A stretch of 64,000 nt of DNA from Catellatospora sp. IY07-71 (GTDB taxonomy: Bacteria; Actinomycetota; Actinomycetes; Mycobacteriales; Micromonosporaceae), in the NCBI RefSeq assembly GCF_018326265.1, contig NZ_AP023360.1:3649501-3713500 (forward strand), written 5' to 3'. A model generated the notes under the pieces. The model was not told where the DNA came from, ran no database searches, and saw only the letters and a program-made list of their open reading frames with translations. Shown in pieces: positions 16,701-22,378 of this stretch. How positions within the stretch are numbered: the stretch's first letter is position 1; each line of letters starts with the position of its first letter. The position numbers were made by a program, and so were the translations under genes.

Positions 16701-17025
16701 CCGGTTCAAGCAGCGGCTCACGCAGCTCGACGACGAACTCGACGCCGCCGCGCGGCGCGACGACACGGCCCGCCGGACCGCGCTGGAACGCGAACGCGAC
16801 GCCCTGCTCGCCGAGCTGCGGGCCGCGGCGGGGCTCGGCGGGCGCGACCGCAGGCTCGGCGACGAGGGCGAGCGGGCCCGCAAGGCGGTCACCGCCCGGA
16901 TCCGCGACATCCTGCGCCGCCTCGACGAGCTGCATCCGGAGCTGGCCGCGCACCTGCGGGCGGCCGTGTCCACCGGCAGCGCCTGCGGCTACCACCCGGA
17001 CCGGCCGGTGTCCTGGCGGCTGTGA
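13798..17025 (+). CDS. Large STAND/AAA-type ATPase regulator with TPR-like region
   Basis: 1075 residues. The N-terminal ATPase has Walker A GEAGIGKTSLL (48-58) and Walker B VVALDDLHWADAASL (about 155-169), as in MalT/LuxR-type large regulators; RRTGGNPFFVEQ follows as sensor region. A long helical, TPR-like section covers about 380-820. A low-complexity linker (about 838-890) contains three 36-base in-frame DNA repeats. The C-terminal 180 residues (from FRREGATWRLTY) form a conserved module with coiled-coil character (FKQRLTQLDDELDAAARR), but I see no LuxR helix-turn-helix, so a direct DNA-binding role is not evident. ATG start. Ends at a hairpin facing the ABC exporter genes. Confidence 0.82.
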   Translation: MDIDRTGHAAPRPTMSAGLLGRAHPSAVLRGEIDRAAAGHGGLVLVAGEAGIGKTSLLTDAMTYARGTGALVVGGTCWDSGSAPGFWPWTQALRAIRRTAVDAEWTAARDAAGPGLSVLLGEHDPERAATALDGEFPLFDAVTTALAALAQRRPLVVALDDLHWADAASLRLLAFAAQHIWAEPVLLVGAYRDVEVEAPGHPLRGLLVPLAAKATAVTLTGLGPAEVAQLMTRTAGSAPDRELAAEVHRRTGGNPFFVEQTARLWHSGGGLTAVAPGVRDALDRRLALLPADVTGLLAVAAVLGREFRRPVLAATAATDPAQVDRLLAQAEEARLVAALPGGGRGFTHDLIRQALHDGLPEPERQRLHVAVVRAADASPEVAAQVLPADLARHAYLAGGCLDPETAVAKLLAAAADASDRLATDEAIGHYRRALALARDPARRVRVLIDLGRGVYHRGDREEGWRLFDEAAATARDSGDGALLSWVALVAHRHGHDGDERSGIRSELLREAYEALLGDGAQVPPEQMAQQLIARTEALARTGRDDEALMFSLWARHDISWGPGGAREREALTAEMEQVSRRVADTGTEALAASFRWVALLEMGDPGYLDQVRAFVAAARRDGSARMRVSLLVDQAVIATMTGDFDRADDLLAQLRGSDGHGHADYAFMQHHLDWALAMQRGRYEHAAALLAGVDAADHPYLPLAQAVTAVERGQVDEALVLAAQAEARRGEDPFPTSVTRLWLRLWAQLAAATADPARCARAREALTPYRGEWAVSLWGCDVGGPLDLWLAEVDAAEQRWDEAIVGYTAAAESSDRMRARPWAERARAGLARVLAARAASPVAEPNAPGHAAAAAEPPAPGQAVAAAEPDAPGRATATAGSPAPAEAPKPSGVDGGEFRREGATWRLTYAGRTVHVPDAKGLRDLYTLVSMPGSDVAAADLADPQGGAQAAAARRLGADPVLDEQAKARFKQRLTQLDDELDAAARRDDTARRTALERERDALLAELRAAAGLGGRDRRLGDEGERARKAVTARIRDILRRLDELHPELAAHLRAAVSTGSACGYHPDRPVSWRL
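16327..16434 (+). repeat. Three tandem 36-bp in-frame repeats
   Basis: Units 16327-16362, 16363-16398 and 16399-16434 encode EPNAPGHAAAAA, EPPAPGQAVAAA and EPDAPGRATATA. The first two differ at only a few bases; the third is more diverged. They lengthen the Pro/Ala linker between the helical section and the C-terminal module of the ATPase regulator. Confidence 0.85.
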
Positions 17026-17064
17026 GCCGCCGGCCTGGGCCGCCAGCCTGAGCCGCCAGGACAC
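17008..17064. terminator. Hairpin between convergent ATPase-regulator and ABC-permease genes
   Basis: Perfect 14-base arms (17008-17021 and 17051-17064, GTGTCCTGGCGGCT and its complement) with a 29-base loop. The left arm overlaps the last codons of the regulator gene. Probable bidirectional terminator. Confidence 0.55.
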
Positions 17065-17075
17065 TGCCGCACCCG

Positions 17076-17924
17076 TCACCGGCGGTTGTACCGCCGCATC
17101 GTCAGCGCGCCGAACACCACGACGAACGCCGCGCTCTCCGCCAGCACCCACGTGATCGCCGACGCGTCGGGCGCGCCGGCCATCACCGAGCGCACCGCCG
17201 CCACCAGCTGCGTGATCGGGTTGACCTCGACGAACGCCTGCAGCCAGCCCGGCATGGTGGTGGGCGCCACGAACACATTGGACAGGAACGTCAGCGGGAA
17301 CAGCACCAGCATGCTGACGCCCATCACCGACTTCTCGCTGCGCAGGATCAGCCCGAACCAGGTCCAGATCCACGAGAACGCGAACGAGAACACCACCAGC
17401 AGGCCGATGCCGCCCGCCACGCCGAGCACCCCGCCGCCGGGCCGGAACCCCAGCGCCAGGCCCACGCCCATGATGACCAGCGCCGCCAGCACGTACCGCA
17501 GCAGATCGCCGAAGATCATGCCGACCAGCGCGGCGGGCCGCCACACCGGCAGGGTGCGGAACCGGTCGAAGATGCCCTTCTCGATGTCGGTGTTCAGCCC
17601 GACGCCGGTGTACATCGTGATCATCACGACGCTGGTGACCATGATGCCCGGCAGCAGGTACTGCAGGTACTCCGTGGGGGAGCCCGCCAGTGCGCCGCCG
17701 AACAGGTAGGTGAACATCAGCGTCATGATGATCGGGAACGCGGTGACGTCGAACAGCTGCTCGGGCACGTGCTTGATCTTCAGCATGGCCCGCCAGCCGA
17801 ACGTCAGCGACGCCGCCAGCGGCCCCGGCCGCTTCGGGCGCGCGCCCGGCGCCAGCACCGCGGCGATGCTCGCCGCCGACGGCGTGTAGGCGGTCGCCGT
17901 CTCGGAAACGACTGCCGTGCTCAT
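17076..17924 (-). CDS. ABC-2 type exporter permease (DrrB-like)
   Basis: 282-residue membrane subunit with six predicted helices and the ABC-2 pattern: [39 protein letters not shown], then the amphipathic signature [19 protein letters not shown] before the second half, and [19 protein letters not shown] near the C-terminus. The ATG at 17924 overlaps the stop of the ATPase gene (ATGA), so the two are translated as a unit. It would form a homodimeric pore for a hydrophobic compound. Confidence 0.93.
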
Positions 17925-18922
17925 GCGTTCTCCTCCGATGCGGTCGCGGCCTTCGCCGCCTTGTCGGTCAGGGCCAGGAACACCTCGTCCAGGCTCGGCT
18001 GGCCCAGCGCGAACTCGTCCACCACGATGCCCGCCGCGGCCAGGTCGCCCAGCGCCCGCGAGCCCGCCGCCGCCGCGTCCACGGCGGTGCCGGAGCCGCC
18101 GACGCGTACGGTCAGCGCCACCGGATCCGGCTCCAGCTGCACCGCCGTGTCCAGCGCCTTGGCCAGGATCCGCTCGGCTTCCGGCCGCTGCGCGGCGTCG
18201 CGCAGCCGCACGTGCACCGTGCCCGCCCCGACCGACGACTTGAGCTGCCCCGGCGTGCCCTCGGCGATGACCCGGCCCTCGTCGATCACCGCGATGCGGC
18301 TTGCGAGCTGGTCGGCCTCGTCCAGGTACTGCGTGGTCAGCAGGACCGTGGTGCCCTGCGCGACGACCGCCCGCACGATCTCCCACACCTGGTTGCGGCT
18401 GCGCGGGTCCAGGCCCGTCGTCGGCTCGTCCAGGAACAGCAGGTCGGGGGTGTTCAGGATGCTGGCGGCGATGTCGATGCGCCGCCGCATGCCGCCGGAG
18501 TACTTCTTCACCTGCCGGTCCGCCGCGTCGGACAGCCCGAACGCGTCCAGCAGCTGCGCCGCGCGCTGCCGGGCCGCCGGCTTGCCGTGGCCGAGCAGCC
18601 GGGCCAGCAGCACCAGGTTCTCGGTGCCGGTCAGGTCCTCGTCGACCGAGGCGTACTGGCCGGTCAGGCTCACCCGGGCGCGCACCGCGTCGGGCTCGGC
18701 CCGCAGGTCGTGGCCGAACACCGTCGCCTGCCCGCTGTCCGGGCGCAGCAGGGTGGCCAGCATGCGTACGGCCGTGGTCTTGCCCGCGCCGTTGGGCCCG
18801 AGCAGGCCGTACACGGTCCCGGCGGGGACCGCGAGATCCAGCCCGTCCACCGCCCGGGTCTTGCCGAACGTCTTCACCAGCCCCGCGGTCTCGATCGCCA
18901 GGCCGGTTGTTCTCGCCGTCAT
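17921..18922 (-). CDS. ABC exporter ATPase (DrrA-like, daunorubicin-resistance family)
   Basis: 333 residues. Walker [10 protein letters not shown], signature [13 protein letters not shown], Walker [19 protein letters not shown] and H-loop-equivalent [12 protein letters not shown] are all present; the Gln-containing TTQYLDEA version is characteristic of DrrA-type drug exporters. The C-terminal 90 residues are the usual DrrA extension ending in [14 protein letters not shown]. The ATG at 18922 is preceded by GGAAT; an upstream in-frame start lies in non-homologous sequence. Likely efflux of an antibiotic or lipid. Confidence 0.93.
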
Positions 18923-18994
18923 CGGATTCCTTCCGTCCGTCGGCGGGGCCCGGAACGCACGCTGCGCCGGCCCCGCCACCATGAAGGCGCCAGA

Positions 18995-19023
18995 CGGCCC
19001 GCTAGATCCGATCTAGCGGGCCG
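18995..19023. terminator. 13-bp perfect hairpin between MDR and ABC genes
   Basis: Arms 18995-19007 (CGGCCCGCTAGAT) and 19011-19023 separated by CCG. It lies after the stop of the minus-strand MDR gene and before the minus-strand ABC ATPase start. It could terminate the former or serve as an operator for the exporter; the short 3-base loop and GC arm bases favour a terminator. Confidence 0.55.
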
Positions 19024-19075
19024 CAGCCGTGGCCGTCCCCGGCGACACCGGTCGCCGCCGGAGGGGTGGCCCGGT

Positions 19076-20044
19076 TCAGACCGTCAGCACGACCTTGCCC
19101 CGGGCCCGGCCGTGCTCCAGGTGGCGCAGCGCCTCGGCGGCCTCGGCGAGCGGGCGGGTGTGGTCGATGACCGGGGTGAAGACCCCGGCGGCCAGCAACT
19201 CGCGCAGGATCTCCATGTCGGCGGCCTTGGTGAGGGCGAGCACCATGCGCAGCCGCTGGCGGGCGAACGGCGCCCGCGCCATCATCCCGAGCGGTCGCTG
19301 CATCCCGCCGAGCACGCCCGCGCTGGTGACGCCGCCGACGATGGCCAGCGTGCCCCGCGGGGCCAGGATGCGGCGCAGCTGGGCGACGGGCCGGTTGCCT
19401 GCGGTGTCCACGATCAGGTCGTAGCGCCCGCCGGCCGCGGTGATGTCGGCACGGGTGTAGTCGACGACCTCGTCGGCGCCGAGCGAGCGCACCAGCTCCG
19501 TCTTGCCGGTGCTGCACACGCCGGTGACGTGCGCGCCGAAGTGCTTGGCGAGCTGGACCGTGTAGGTGCCGACGCCACCGGCCGCGCCGAGGACCAGCAC
19601 CCGCTGTCCGGGCCGGACCCGCCCGACGTCGCGCAGGGTCTGCAGCGCGGTGACGGCGGAGACGGCGACGGCCGCGCCCTGGGTGAAGGTGACACCGTCG
19701 GGCAGGGCGGTGAACCGGTCCTGCTTGGCGCAGGCGTACTCGGCGAAGGCGCCGGGGCAGTTGCCGAAGACGCGGTCGCCGGGCTGGAAGCGGGTCACGC
19801 CGGGCCCGACCGCGGCTACCTCGCCGGCGAGGTCGCCGCCGGGGACCCGGTGGCGCGGGCGGCGCAGGCCGAAGCCGAGCCGCACCAGGTAGGGCGTGCC
19901 GGTGGCGAGATGCCAGATGCCCGGATCCACTCCGGCGGCGCGCACCCGCACCAGCACCTCTCCGTCGCCGGGCGCGGGCTGCTCGATCTCACGCGGTTGC
20001 AGGACGTCGACGGTGCCGTACGCGTCCTGGACGATCGCCTTCAC
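19076..20044 (-). CDS. Zinc-independent MDR, quinone-oxidoreductase-like enzyme
   Basis: NADPH-dependent medium-chain dehydrogenase/reductase, 322 residues. GroES-like N-terminal part (about 1-120), then the Rossmann part with VLVLGAAGGVGTYTVQLAKHFGA. The catalytic-zinc Cys/His ligands of alcohol dehydrogenases are missing, as in quinone reductases. The GTG at 20044 (VKAIVQDAYG) is the better start because AAGGAG lies six bases upstream; the ATG at 20059 has no ribosome site. It lies 27 bases behind the small membrane-protein gene and may share its operator-controlled promoter. Confidence 0.9.
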   Translation of the reverse strand: MKAIVQDAYGTVDVLQPREIEQPAPGDGEVLVRVRAAGVDPGIWHLATGTPYLVRLGFGLRRPRHRVPGGDLAGEVAAVGPGVTRFQPGDRVFGNCPGAFAEYACAKQDRFTALPDGVTFTQGAAVAVSAVTALQTLRDVGRVRPGQRVLVLGAAGGVGTYTVQLAKHFGAHVTGVCSTGKTELVRSLGADEVVDYTRADITAAGGRYDLIVDTAGNRPVAQLRRILAPRGTLAIVGGVTSAGVLGGMQRPLGMMARAPFARQRLRMVLALTKAADMEILRELLAAGVFTPVIDHTRPLAEAAEALRHLEHGRARGKVVLTV

Positions 20045-20071
20045 GGCTGACTCCTTCATGGTCGAGGTGCT

Positions 20072-20503
20072 TCACCAGGGCTGGAAGCCCCGGCGGTAAG
20101 AGATGATCTTCGCGGTGGACGTGAGCAGCGATGACAGCACGAAGCCCAGGTAGATCACGTTGGCGATCCAGAAGTGCGCCACCTCGGCCAGCGCCATGAC
20201 CATGGCGGCGAGCCCTCCGATCACGACGAAGGACTGCCCGGTCAGCTCGCTGCTGCGGTGGATCGCCTGGTCGCGCTCGTCGGCGCCGCGGCCGGCGTCC
20301 CGGGGTGCCGCGATGGACGCGGCGATGGTCAGCACGATGGTCGCGGCGATGGCCGCGCCGATGCTCCACAGCAGCGGGGCGGCGTAGGGCGTGTCGGGCA
20401 GCGGGGTGTCCCCGGCCCGTCCGAGCACGGCGGCGACGTAGGAACCGTATGCGGCCACGGTGACCAGCACCATGATCCAGGTGCGCTTCTCCTCGAACGC
20501 CAT
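20072..20503 (-). CDS. Four-helix membrane protein of unknown function
   Basis: 143 residues with four transmembrane segments: WIMVLVTVAAYGSYVAAVLG, LLWSIGAAIAATIVLTIAAS, FVVIGGLAAMVMALAEVAHF and IYLGFVLSSLLTSTAKII. A charged loop RGADERDQAIHRSSE separates helices 2 and 3. Such proteins are commonly encoded beside a small HTH regulator, but none is adjacent here. GGAGG lies six bases before the ATG at 20503, which excludes the GTG at 20509. Transcription probably starts inside the twin-palindrome region upstream. Confidence 0.75.
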   Translation of the reverse strand: MAFEEKRTWIMVLVTVAAYGSYVAAVLGRAGDTPLPDTPYAAPLLWSIGAAIAATIVLTIAASIAAPRDAGRGADERDQAIHRSSELTGQSFVVIGGLAAMVMALAEVAHFWIANVIYLGFVLSSLLTSTAKIISYRRGFQPW

Positions 20504-20516
20504 GCCCACCCTCCGG

Positions 20517-20580
20517 TGTAAAGGATTCTTGACATCCTGAGGGTAGGAAGAACGCGGCCGCGTGTCAAGAATTCTTTACA
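20517..20580. promoter_or_regulatory. Twin 18-bp palindromic operators around a promoter
   Basis: Site 1 at 20517-20534 (TGTAAAGGATTCTTGACA) and site 2 at 20563-20580 (TGTCAAGAATTCTTTACA) match in 17 of 18 positions when one is inverted. Each is also nearly self-palindromic (TGT-N-AAG-AATT-CTT-N-ACA). Centres are 46 bp apart. On the minus strand the TTGACA inside site 2 is a consensus -35, followed 17 bases on by TACCCT. A repressor dimer at each site would block the promoter of the small membrane-protein gene. Confidence 0.7.
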
Positions 20581-20785
20581 TCGCTCGGGGGCTGCTCGGG
20601 GAACGTTGTCATCCGCTGCCGCCGCAGGTGAGCGCGCTGCCGTGCGATCGGCGGCGTTGCCCGGAGCCGGGCGGCGAGTGTGATGTACGCCCGATCAGTG
20701 GCCTGCTTCATTGACGGCCCCGTCCGGTGACCACACCATGTGTGAAATTCTCGATCGATCGTTCAGGGCGTTGACGGGAGATGCG

Positions 20786-22378
20786 GTGGGGCAGGAGCCT
20801 GGCGTGCAGCAAGCAATACCGGAGTCCACAAGCGAGGGTCCGGGCACCGCGTCCCGCCTGGGCGTGGCGGCGGAGTCGGCGGCCGGGGAGACCCGGGTCG
20901 CGGCGACCCCGGCCGTGGTACGCCAGCTCGTGGCGCTCGGATACGAGGTGGAGGTCGAGTCCGGCGCGGGCGCGCGGGCCAGCCTCCCCGACGAGGACTA
21001 CGAGGACGCCGGCGCGAAGATCTGCAGCCGCGAGGAGTGCTGGCAGGCCGACATCGTCCTGAAGATCAACCCGCCCACCGACGGCGAGGCCGCCCAGCTG
21101 CGCCCCGGCGCGACCCTGATCAGCCTGATCGGACCGGCCGTGCGCCCCGAGCTGGTCGACGCGCTCGCGCAGCGGCCGATCAGCGTGCTGGCCATGGACG
21201 CCGTGCCGCGCATCTCCCGCGCCCAGTCGATGGACGTGCTCAGCTCCATGGCCAACATCGCCGGCTACCGGGCCGTCGTCGAGGCCGCGCACACCTTCGG
21301 CCGCTTCTTCGCCGGTCAGGTCACCGCCGCGGGCAAGGTCCCTCCGGCCAAGGTGCTCGTCGCGGGCGCGGGCGTGGCCGGCCTGGCCGCCATCGGCGCC
21401 GCCAAGAGCCTCGGCGCGATCGTGCGCGCCACCGACCCCCGCCCGGAGGTAGCCGAGCAGGTCCGCTCGCTCGGCGGCGAGTTCCTCTCCGTGGCCGCCG
21501 AGCAGACCGGCGGCGGCGACGGGTACGCCAAGCAGACCTCCGCCGACTACGACCGGCGCGCCGCCGAGCTGTACGCCCAGCAGGCCGCCGACGTCGACAT
21601 CGTCATCACCACGGCGCTCATCCCGGGCCGCCCCGCGCCGCGGCTGCTCACCGCCGAGCACGTGGCCGCCATGCGCCCCGGCAGCGTCATCGTCGACATG
21701 GGAGCCGCCCAGGGCGGCAACGTCGAGGGCACCGTGCCCGGCGAGATCGTCGTCACCGACAACGGCGTCTCGATCATCGGCTACACCGACCTGCCCGGCC
21801 GGCTCCCCACGCAGGCGTCCCAGCTCTACGCGACCAACCTGCTCAACCTGATGAAGCTGCTCACGCCGGGCCGCGACGGCCGGCTCGTGCTCGACTTCGA
21901 CGACGTCGTGATCCGGGCGATGACCGTCGTGCGCGACGGCGCCAAGACCTGGCCCCCGCCGCCGGTCCAGGTGTCGGCCACCCCCGCGGCCGCCGCCGCG
22001 CCCGCGCCCGCCGTACCGGACAAGCCCAAGGCCTCGCCCGCGCGGATCTACAGCTACGTCGGTCTTGCCGCGGCGGCGCTGTTCGCGCTGACCGCGTTCG
22101 CGCCCGGCCAGTTCGTCGGCAACTTCACCGTGTTCGCCCTCGCCGTCGTCATCGGCTACTACGTCGTCGGCAAGGTCCACCACGCGCTGCACACCCCGCT
22201 GATGTCGGTCACCAACGCCATCTCCGGGATCATCGTGGTCGGCGCGCTGCTGCAGATCGGCCGGGACGACCTCGTCGTCACGGGGCTCGCCGCGGCCGCG
22301 ATCCTGCTGGTCACCATCAACATCTTCGGCGGATTCGCCGTCACCCGGCGCATGCTCGGCATGTTCACGAAGGGCTGA
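20786..22378 (+). CDS. pntA: NAD(P) transhydrogenase alpha subunit
   Basis: About 530 residues. Contains the NAD(H)-binding domain I ([20 protein letters not shown] at the start, then [22 protein letters not shown] for the dinucleotide, and [13 protein letters not shown]) followed by a Pro/Ala-rich linker and four C-terminal transmembrane helices. The soluble and membrane parts, split into two proteins (PntAa/PntAb) in some bacteria, are fused here. With PntB it couples hydride transfer between NADH and NADP+ to proton movement across the cytoplasmic membrane. The start is uncertain: GTG 20786 (GGGAG five bases upstream) or GTG 20804 (CAGGAG six bases upstream). An extra ~25-residue N-terminus precedes the conserved RLGVAAES. 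Confidence 0.93.

Follow-up and report, generated by a model that had tools for sequence, protein, structure and literature searches.

The window, by which we mean the whole 64-kb stretch of Catellatospora DNA that was analysed, contains a minus-strand promoter region marked by two nearly identical palindromes, followed by a gene for a small membrane protein, an oxidoreductase gene, and a pair of ABC-transporter genes. The features of this locus, together with a regulator gene found elsewhere in the same genome (G000, contig C1), are as follows:

17076-18982, minus strand: genes for a DrrA-like ABC ATPase and an ABC-2 permease, both in the direction of the oxidoreductase gene, from which a 93-nt gap separates them
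19076-20059, minus strand: medium-chain dehydrogenase/reductase gene, quinone-oxidoreductase-like (PF08240, PF00107), 12 nt after the membrane-protein gene
20072-20503, minus strand: target gene, a 143-aa membrane protein with four predicted helices and a D-x-R-D stretch (D75, R77, D78)
20510-20514, minus strand: ribosome-binding site GGAGG, 6 nt 5' of ATG 20503, read directly
20517-20534, no strand assigned: putative operator 2, TGTAAAGGATTCTTGACA on the plus strand, just 5' of the ribosome-binding site; same bases in the sister genome G001
20540-20545, minus strand: predicted -10 element TACCCT, 17 bp past the -35 and between the operators; layout conserved at related loci
20563-20568, minus strand: predicted -35 element TTGACA, read directly, inside operator 1; layout recurs at related loci
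20563-20580, no strand assigned: putative operator 1, TGTCAAGAATTCTTTACA on the plus strand, overlapping the -35 of the minus-strand promoter; same bases in G001
G000:C1:4557398-4557619, minus strand: 73-aa CylR2-like XRE regulator (HTH) gene, its start overlapped by the end of a gene for a 156-aa membrane protein

We infer that the oxidoreductase gene, which has an alternative start at GTG 20044, is cotranscribed with the membrane-protein gene. The divergent neighbour of the latter carries AlaDh/PNT domains and is presumably a transhydrogenase subunit. The 143-aa membrane protein itself gave no match in either Pfam or NCBIfam. A scan of five neighbouring proteins detected no regulator among them, in agreement with the earlier note, which had seen none beside the genes thought to be controlled.

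That note had also described the two sites as near-identical 18-bp palindromes, and the window bears this out: at up to three mismatches, TGTNAAGAATTCTTNACA matched at 20563-20580 (0 mismatches) and 20517-20534 (1 mismatch) and nowhere else in the 64 kb, and its maximum count in 100 dinucleotide-preserving shuffles was 0. The two palindromes are spaced 46 bp apart, first base to first base. With a refined motif, TGTMAARNATNYTTKACA, and at most one mismatch, the 8.6-Mb genome yielded four sites, namely the window pair and one other pair, and the reversed-pattern control over the whole genome yielded 0. A palindrome at G000:C1:2617591 that had matched the first, looser pattern with one mismatch failed the refined motif and was left out. 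Two further sequences were seen along the way: TGTCAAGCCTTCTTCGAA, present in six identical copies in the genome (G000:C1 112422, 3421452, 3751989, 4584758, 7451408 and 7861395), which are perhaps part of a repeated element and were set aside on the assumption that they are unrelated to the operators, and the palindrome TGTGAACATTTCTTCACA (L015:4592-4609), which does not fit the refined motif and lies ~190 bp upstream of a gene that we read as resembling one for an ammonium transporter.

Read along the minus strand, the promoter region runs from operator 1 with its TTGACA end through TACCCT, operator 2, and GGAGG to ATG 20503. The working -35 is likely the minus-strand TTGACA within 20563-20580; a plus-strand TTGACA in 20517-20534 was also considered as a -35 and was rejected, as it lacks a -10-like hexamer 17 bp on. 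The earlier note had proposed that the sites flank and include the -35, of which the inclusion stands, given that the -35 lies inside the upstream site, and the element that is flanked proves to be the -10. Operator 2 would accordingly occupy roughly positions +1 to +18 of the transcript when counted from the predicted start site. The window -10 is weak by consensus, and a sigma-70 consensus scan of 17000-20800 detected no promoter, so that our promoter call is based on the conservation of its layout at related loci: a TANNNT hexamer lies 16-18 bp past the upstream site on the HTH strand at 60 of 74 such loci, compared to 4.6 expected from shuffled spacers.

The sole other operator pair in the 8.6-Mb single-contig genome lies 888 kb away, at 4558131 and 4558177, also with a 46-bp spacing. 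Downstream of it stand the 156-aa membrane protein, which is 36% identical to the one in the window, the 73-aa HTH gene, and, after the HTH gene, a DUF4386 gene (PF14329). The suggestion in the earlier note that a genome search for further 18-mer copies would lead to the regulator gene was thus fruitful, as this pair precedes a membrane-protein gene and a CylR2-like HTH. The 73-aa protein is homologous to CylR2 (1utx; E 8e-11 over residues 7-69), matches a PbsX-family regulator (9k3w; E 9e-17; we found no paper naming PDB 9K3W in the open-access literature), and consists almost entirely of an HTH_3 domain (PF01381; 62.7 bits versus a cut-off of 23, residues 11-65), as expected of a small XRE regulator of 65-75 aa. 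When used as a query against the genome at E 0.001, it returned its own copy and a single XRE match at 4390766 (35% identity, E 6e-6). At the promoter of the regulator itself, both operators are one base off the motif, so that the exact site preference of the protein may differ from it, and the window operators fit the motif more closely.

Relatives within the genus display what the window locus lacks. A search of 11 Catellatospora genomes with the window protein gave 13 loci, in 11 of which an HTH gene directly follows the membrane-protein gene, all 11 HTH proteins having the stretch TRQTVIAIEQGRYSPSLE in common. At the other two, the window and its counterpart in the sister genome G001, the HTH was not found and the oxidoreductase gene follows instead, in the place that the HTH gene holds in the relatives. 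Among the 11 genomes, G001 alone encodes a relative of this oxidoreductase at 95%, and the runner-up stands at 52%. Two sites (up to 4 mismatches, 44-47 bp apart) were present at 10 of the 13 loci and one site at the other 3. The nearest window-type genes with an HTH (L020 and L021, in G009 and G007) carry a single operator on the -35, which indicates that two operators are not essential; their mRNA looks leaderless, since a -10-like hexamer lies so near the ATG.

Comparison of the window with G001 revealed 0 differences in the 36 operator bases and 4 in the 28-bp spacer between the operators. In the 124 bases before operator 1, 25 differ, and in the 200 bases farther upstream, 4 differ. Because those 200 bases are so little changed and the two species are close, operator identity would be weak evidence if taken as the sole evidence. 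The membrane-protein genes of the two genomes differ by 13 silent codon changes and 6 residue changes (dN/dS ~0.16). A CylR1/CylR2-type pair requires both a membrane-protein gene, which is present in the window (four helices), and an adjacent HTH, which is absent from the window locus and its sister (L018 and L019); we therefore file the window locus as an orphan target and not as a complete pair.

A survey of the wider family gave the same picture. Of 250 family genomes, 16 contained matches to a strict two-site pattern, at 20 distinct places by our count, and the reversed pattern gave no match. Judged by coordinates, at least 16 of the 20 places adjoin an HTH among the matches listed, the remaining four being the window, its G001 counterpart, one place in G002, and one in G005. 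The G002 and G005 pairs precede DUF4386-type genes (L048:1500-1563 and 1615-2322 in G002; L035:1571-2320 in G005), an assignment that comes from a Pfam scan for the G002 protein and from a near-identical translation for G005; an HTH was not found in the 3-kb loci of these genes, and DUF4386 proteins may belong to the regulon. With the window protein as query and a threshold of E 1e-30, 109 of 354 genomes gave a match. At 28 of the best 30 membrane-protein loci an HTH is adjacent, the window and G001 being the exceptions, and each of the 30 has one or more sites with a score above 12, the window sites being among the best. Two sites 46-47 bp apart were seen at 23 of these loci, one site at 4, and an alternative spacing of 21 bp at 3 (L218, L226 and L242).

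The association between operator and regulator extends across phyla and was found in both directions. Scanning species genomes for the operator pair returned at least 120 stretches, 80 of which were taken as loci, from Actinobacteria, Firmicutes, Proteobacteria, Chloroflexi, a spirochaete, and others. The commonest gap between sites was 28 bp, equivalent to the 46-bp spacing (26 of 80; range 22-30, with 22-32 allowed). An HTH (E <1e-8) lies within 2.5 kb downstream at 74 of the 80 listed loci, where the near-symmetric pair was read in either orientation for this downstream count; as an internal control, the 599,563 bases of these loci contain 74 HTH frames, every one of them in that downstream interval and 0 elsewhere. 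Among the 6 loci without an HTH, three have pairs that lie 36, 54, and 202 bp from the locus end, and a further one, L100, precedes a small membrane-type ORF. After this Paenibacillus pair (L100:5320-5382) comes a 70-aa ORF that contains a single hydrophobic stretch and the sequence DEMEQ, but no HTH, and the locus is possibly another orphan. The pairs at L157 and L158 look like chance occurrences.

In the opposite direction, we took the 29 best family matches to the HTH query outside the window's genome, a sample that was not random and that includes four from Catellatospora. Two positive-scoring sites 44-47 bp apart (lowest score 8.8) were present at 23 of the 29 loci, one strong site at 5, and none at 1, as scored with a weight matrix derived from the operator-selected loci and not from these 29, with related genera in both sets. 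The scores at 28 of the 29, a figure that includes the single-site loci, exceeded the maximum of 40 shuffles, which sampled dinucleotide transitions and not exact counts.

Small membrane proteins also accompany the regulator. An adjacent membrane ORF, defined as 85-260 aa with two or more hydrophobic stretches, was found at 71 of the 74 operator-selected loci with an HTH, before the HTH in 54 and after it in 17; this rule also admitted DUF4386-like ORFs and probably one spurious ORF (L086). Of these 71 ORFs, 63 contain a loop of the D-x-R-[DENS] or DE type according to a regular expression that is crude in both directions; several of the non-matching rows have DER plus a different residue. An alignment of the 29 members closest to the window type shows 12 invariant positions, which include D75, R77, D78, and I81. 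The window protein was modelled with four helices, with a mean pLDDT of 72.7 that drops to ~54 over residues 71-90, and gave no PDB match at E ≤0.001. The D-x-R-D stretch would lie on the cytoplasmic side.

Taken together, these data make it very likely, in our view, that the window palindromes are operators of a CylR2-like small XRE repressor and that an orphan promoter is here controlled in trans from 4.557 Mb, the two promoters forming one regulon. That the sites are operators, as the earlier note had assumed, is supported at the level of sequence by the way in which this operator type tracks the CylR2-like HTH family. For the other possibility raised in that note, a repressor among the regulators encoded in the window, we saw no indication in these data. 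In most of the related loci examined, the gene for this repressor adjoins one for a membrane protein with about four helices, both in an operon behind one or two operators, usually placed on either side of the -10. The window lineage appears to have kept the membrane-protein gene and the operators, with the repressor gene absent and the oxidoreductase gene next in line. Since the operon lacks the repressor gene, its promoter is most likely controlled in trans, and the candidate for this role is encoded at 4.557 Mb, no other close CylR2-like protein having been found in this genome. With one repressor dimer bound per operator, the -35 and the start region would both be covered and RNA polymerase thereby blocked, and repression is predicted to be tighter at the window promoter than at the regulator's own, given the better fit of the window operators to the motif. 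The membrane protein probably senses a membrane-related signal and frees the repressor, perhaps via the D-x-R-D stretch; by analogy with CylR1, it probably relays the signal to the repressor.

Alternatively, the sites could be bound by a different regulator, such as the XRE protein at 4390766 or an unrelated repressor, with the CylR2-like protein serving its own promoter only. The genome does contain that second, weak XRE match, and the one-base deviations at the regulator's own promoter would fit such a division of labour, but in relatives, CylR2-like HTH operons are preceded by operators with the window's sequence, TRQTVIAIEQGRYSPSLE is common to all 11 genus HTHs, and in other phyla, too, this type of operator goes together with the HTH. 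We regard a different regulator as improbable. Slightly less probable still is that the operators are relics at a constitutive promoter, either decaying or retained solely for promoter function. While the absence of an adjacent HTH gene in both species is in line with that reading, and the 0 changes in 36 operator bases could be due to chance between such close species, few of the 30 loci have sites that score as well as those in the window, the downstream operator does not form part of the promoter, and the HTH is still encoded in the genome.

The symmetry might also be viewed as a mere by-product of the promoter hexamer TTGACA/TGTCAA, requiring no regulator, as TTGACA does form part of the operator half-site. 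This we consider extremely unlikely, because the 18-bp symmetry occurs at both places and in none of 100 shuffles, the downstream site has no promoter role, and other loci exhibit both the preferred spacing and the HTH linkage.

On a broader scale, we think it probable, with somewhat less confidence than for the window itself, that TGTMAARNATNYTTKACA occurring twice ~46 bp apart around the -10 constitutes an operator code common to CylR2-like repressors of Actinobacteria, Firmicutes, Proteobacteria, Chloroflexi, and other phyla, every such repressor being linked to a membrane protein that mostly has a D-x-R-D or DE-type loop. These would represent a widespread and largely unstudied sensor/repressor class that includes the cytolysin regulator as a special case, and the Catellatospora promoter would be a sensor gene that, without a repressor gene of its own, joined the regulon in trans. 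The shared operator and promoter layout makes such loci recognisable from DNA, so that regulons can be predicted genome by genome, and opens the membrane partner to reporter testing. At the window promoter, the target is naturally separated from the repressor gene, which is useful for testing action in trans.

No description of this operator was found in the open-access literature, which was sought by operator sequence, by regulator, and by gene pair; the CylR2 operator is reportedly the subject of a published paper. The type of gene pair is already known, from CylR1/CylR2 and from Xre-membrane pairs noted in 2009. According to the available part of a 2013 review, CylR1 and CylR2 are the regulators of the Enterococcus faecalis cytolysin, where CylR2 works at the operon's promoter region and CylR1 is required for induction, its action on CylR2 not being understood (PMC3709268); the accessible portion of a 2024 preprint calls the prevalence of this system in other gene clusters unexplored (PMC11343131). 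Like the 66-aa HTH protein CylR2, as far as these excerpts describe it, the homologous 73-aa regulator is encoded with a membrane protein, which, unlike CylR1 with its three predicted helices, has about four helices and a D-x-R-D stretch. Unlike the CylR1/CylR2 arrangement, the regulator lies 888 kb from its proposed target in the window.

An experimentally studied case, in the part of the paper available, is VanUG, an Xre-family repressor of the vanG operon with two imperfect palindromes, whose footprint covers the -35 and extends to +10 at higher concentration, and which represses both itself and a second promoter (PMC4405338). By description, our system resembles it in combining an Xre-family protein, two palindromes, and a predicted control of its own and a second target promoter, and differs from what the excerpt reports in that the VanUG palindromes are adjacent and belong to a three-component system, whereas the sites here lie around the -10. 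PMC8457756, in its available portion, concerns other Xre proteins. A toxin-antitoxin survey of 2009 set aside conserved pairs of an Xre protein and a membrane protein (PA2784-like, YoaS-like, and PA4076-like), with no operator described in the accessible part of the text (PMC2701414); by that partial description, the pairs are like ours in joining an Xre repressor to a membrane protein. Overall, in comparison with these systems, the mechanism appears to be an ordinary repressor mechanism by kind, the orphan arrangement appears unusual, and the operator code appears to extend well beyond this genome.
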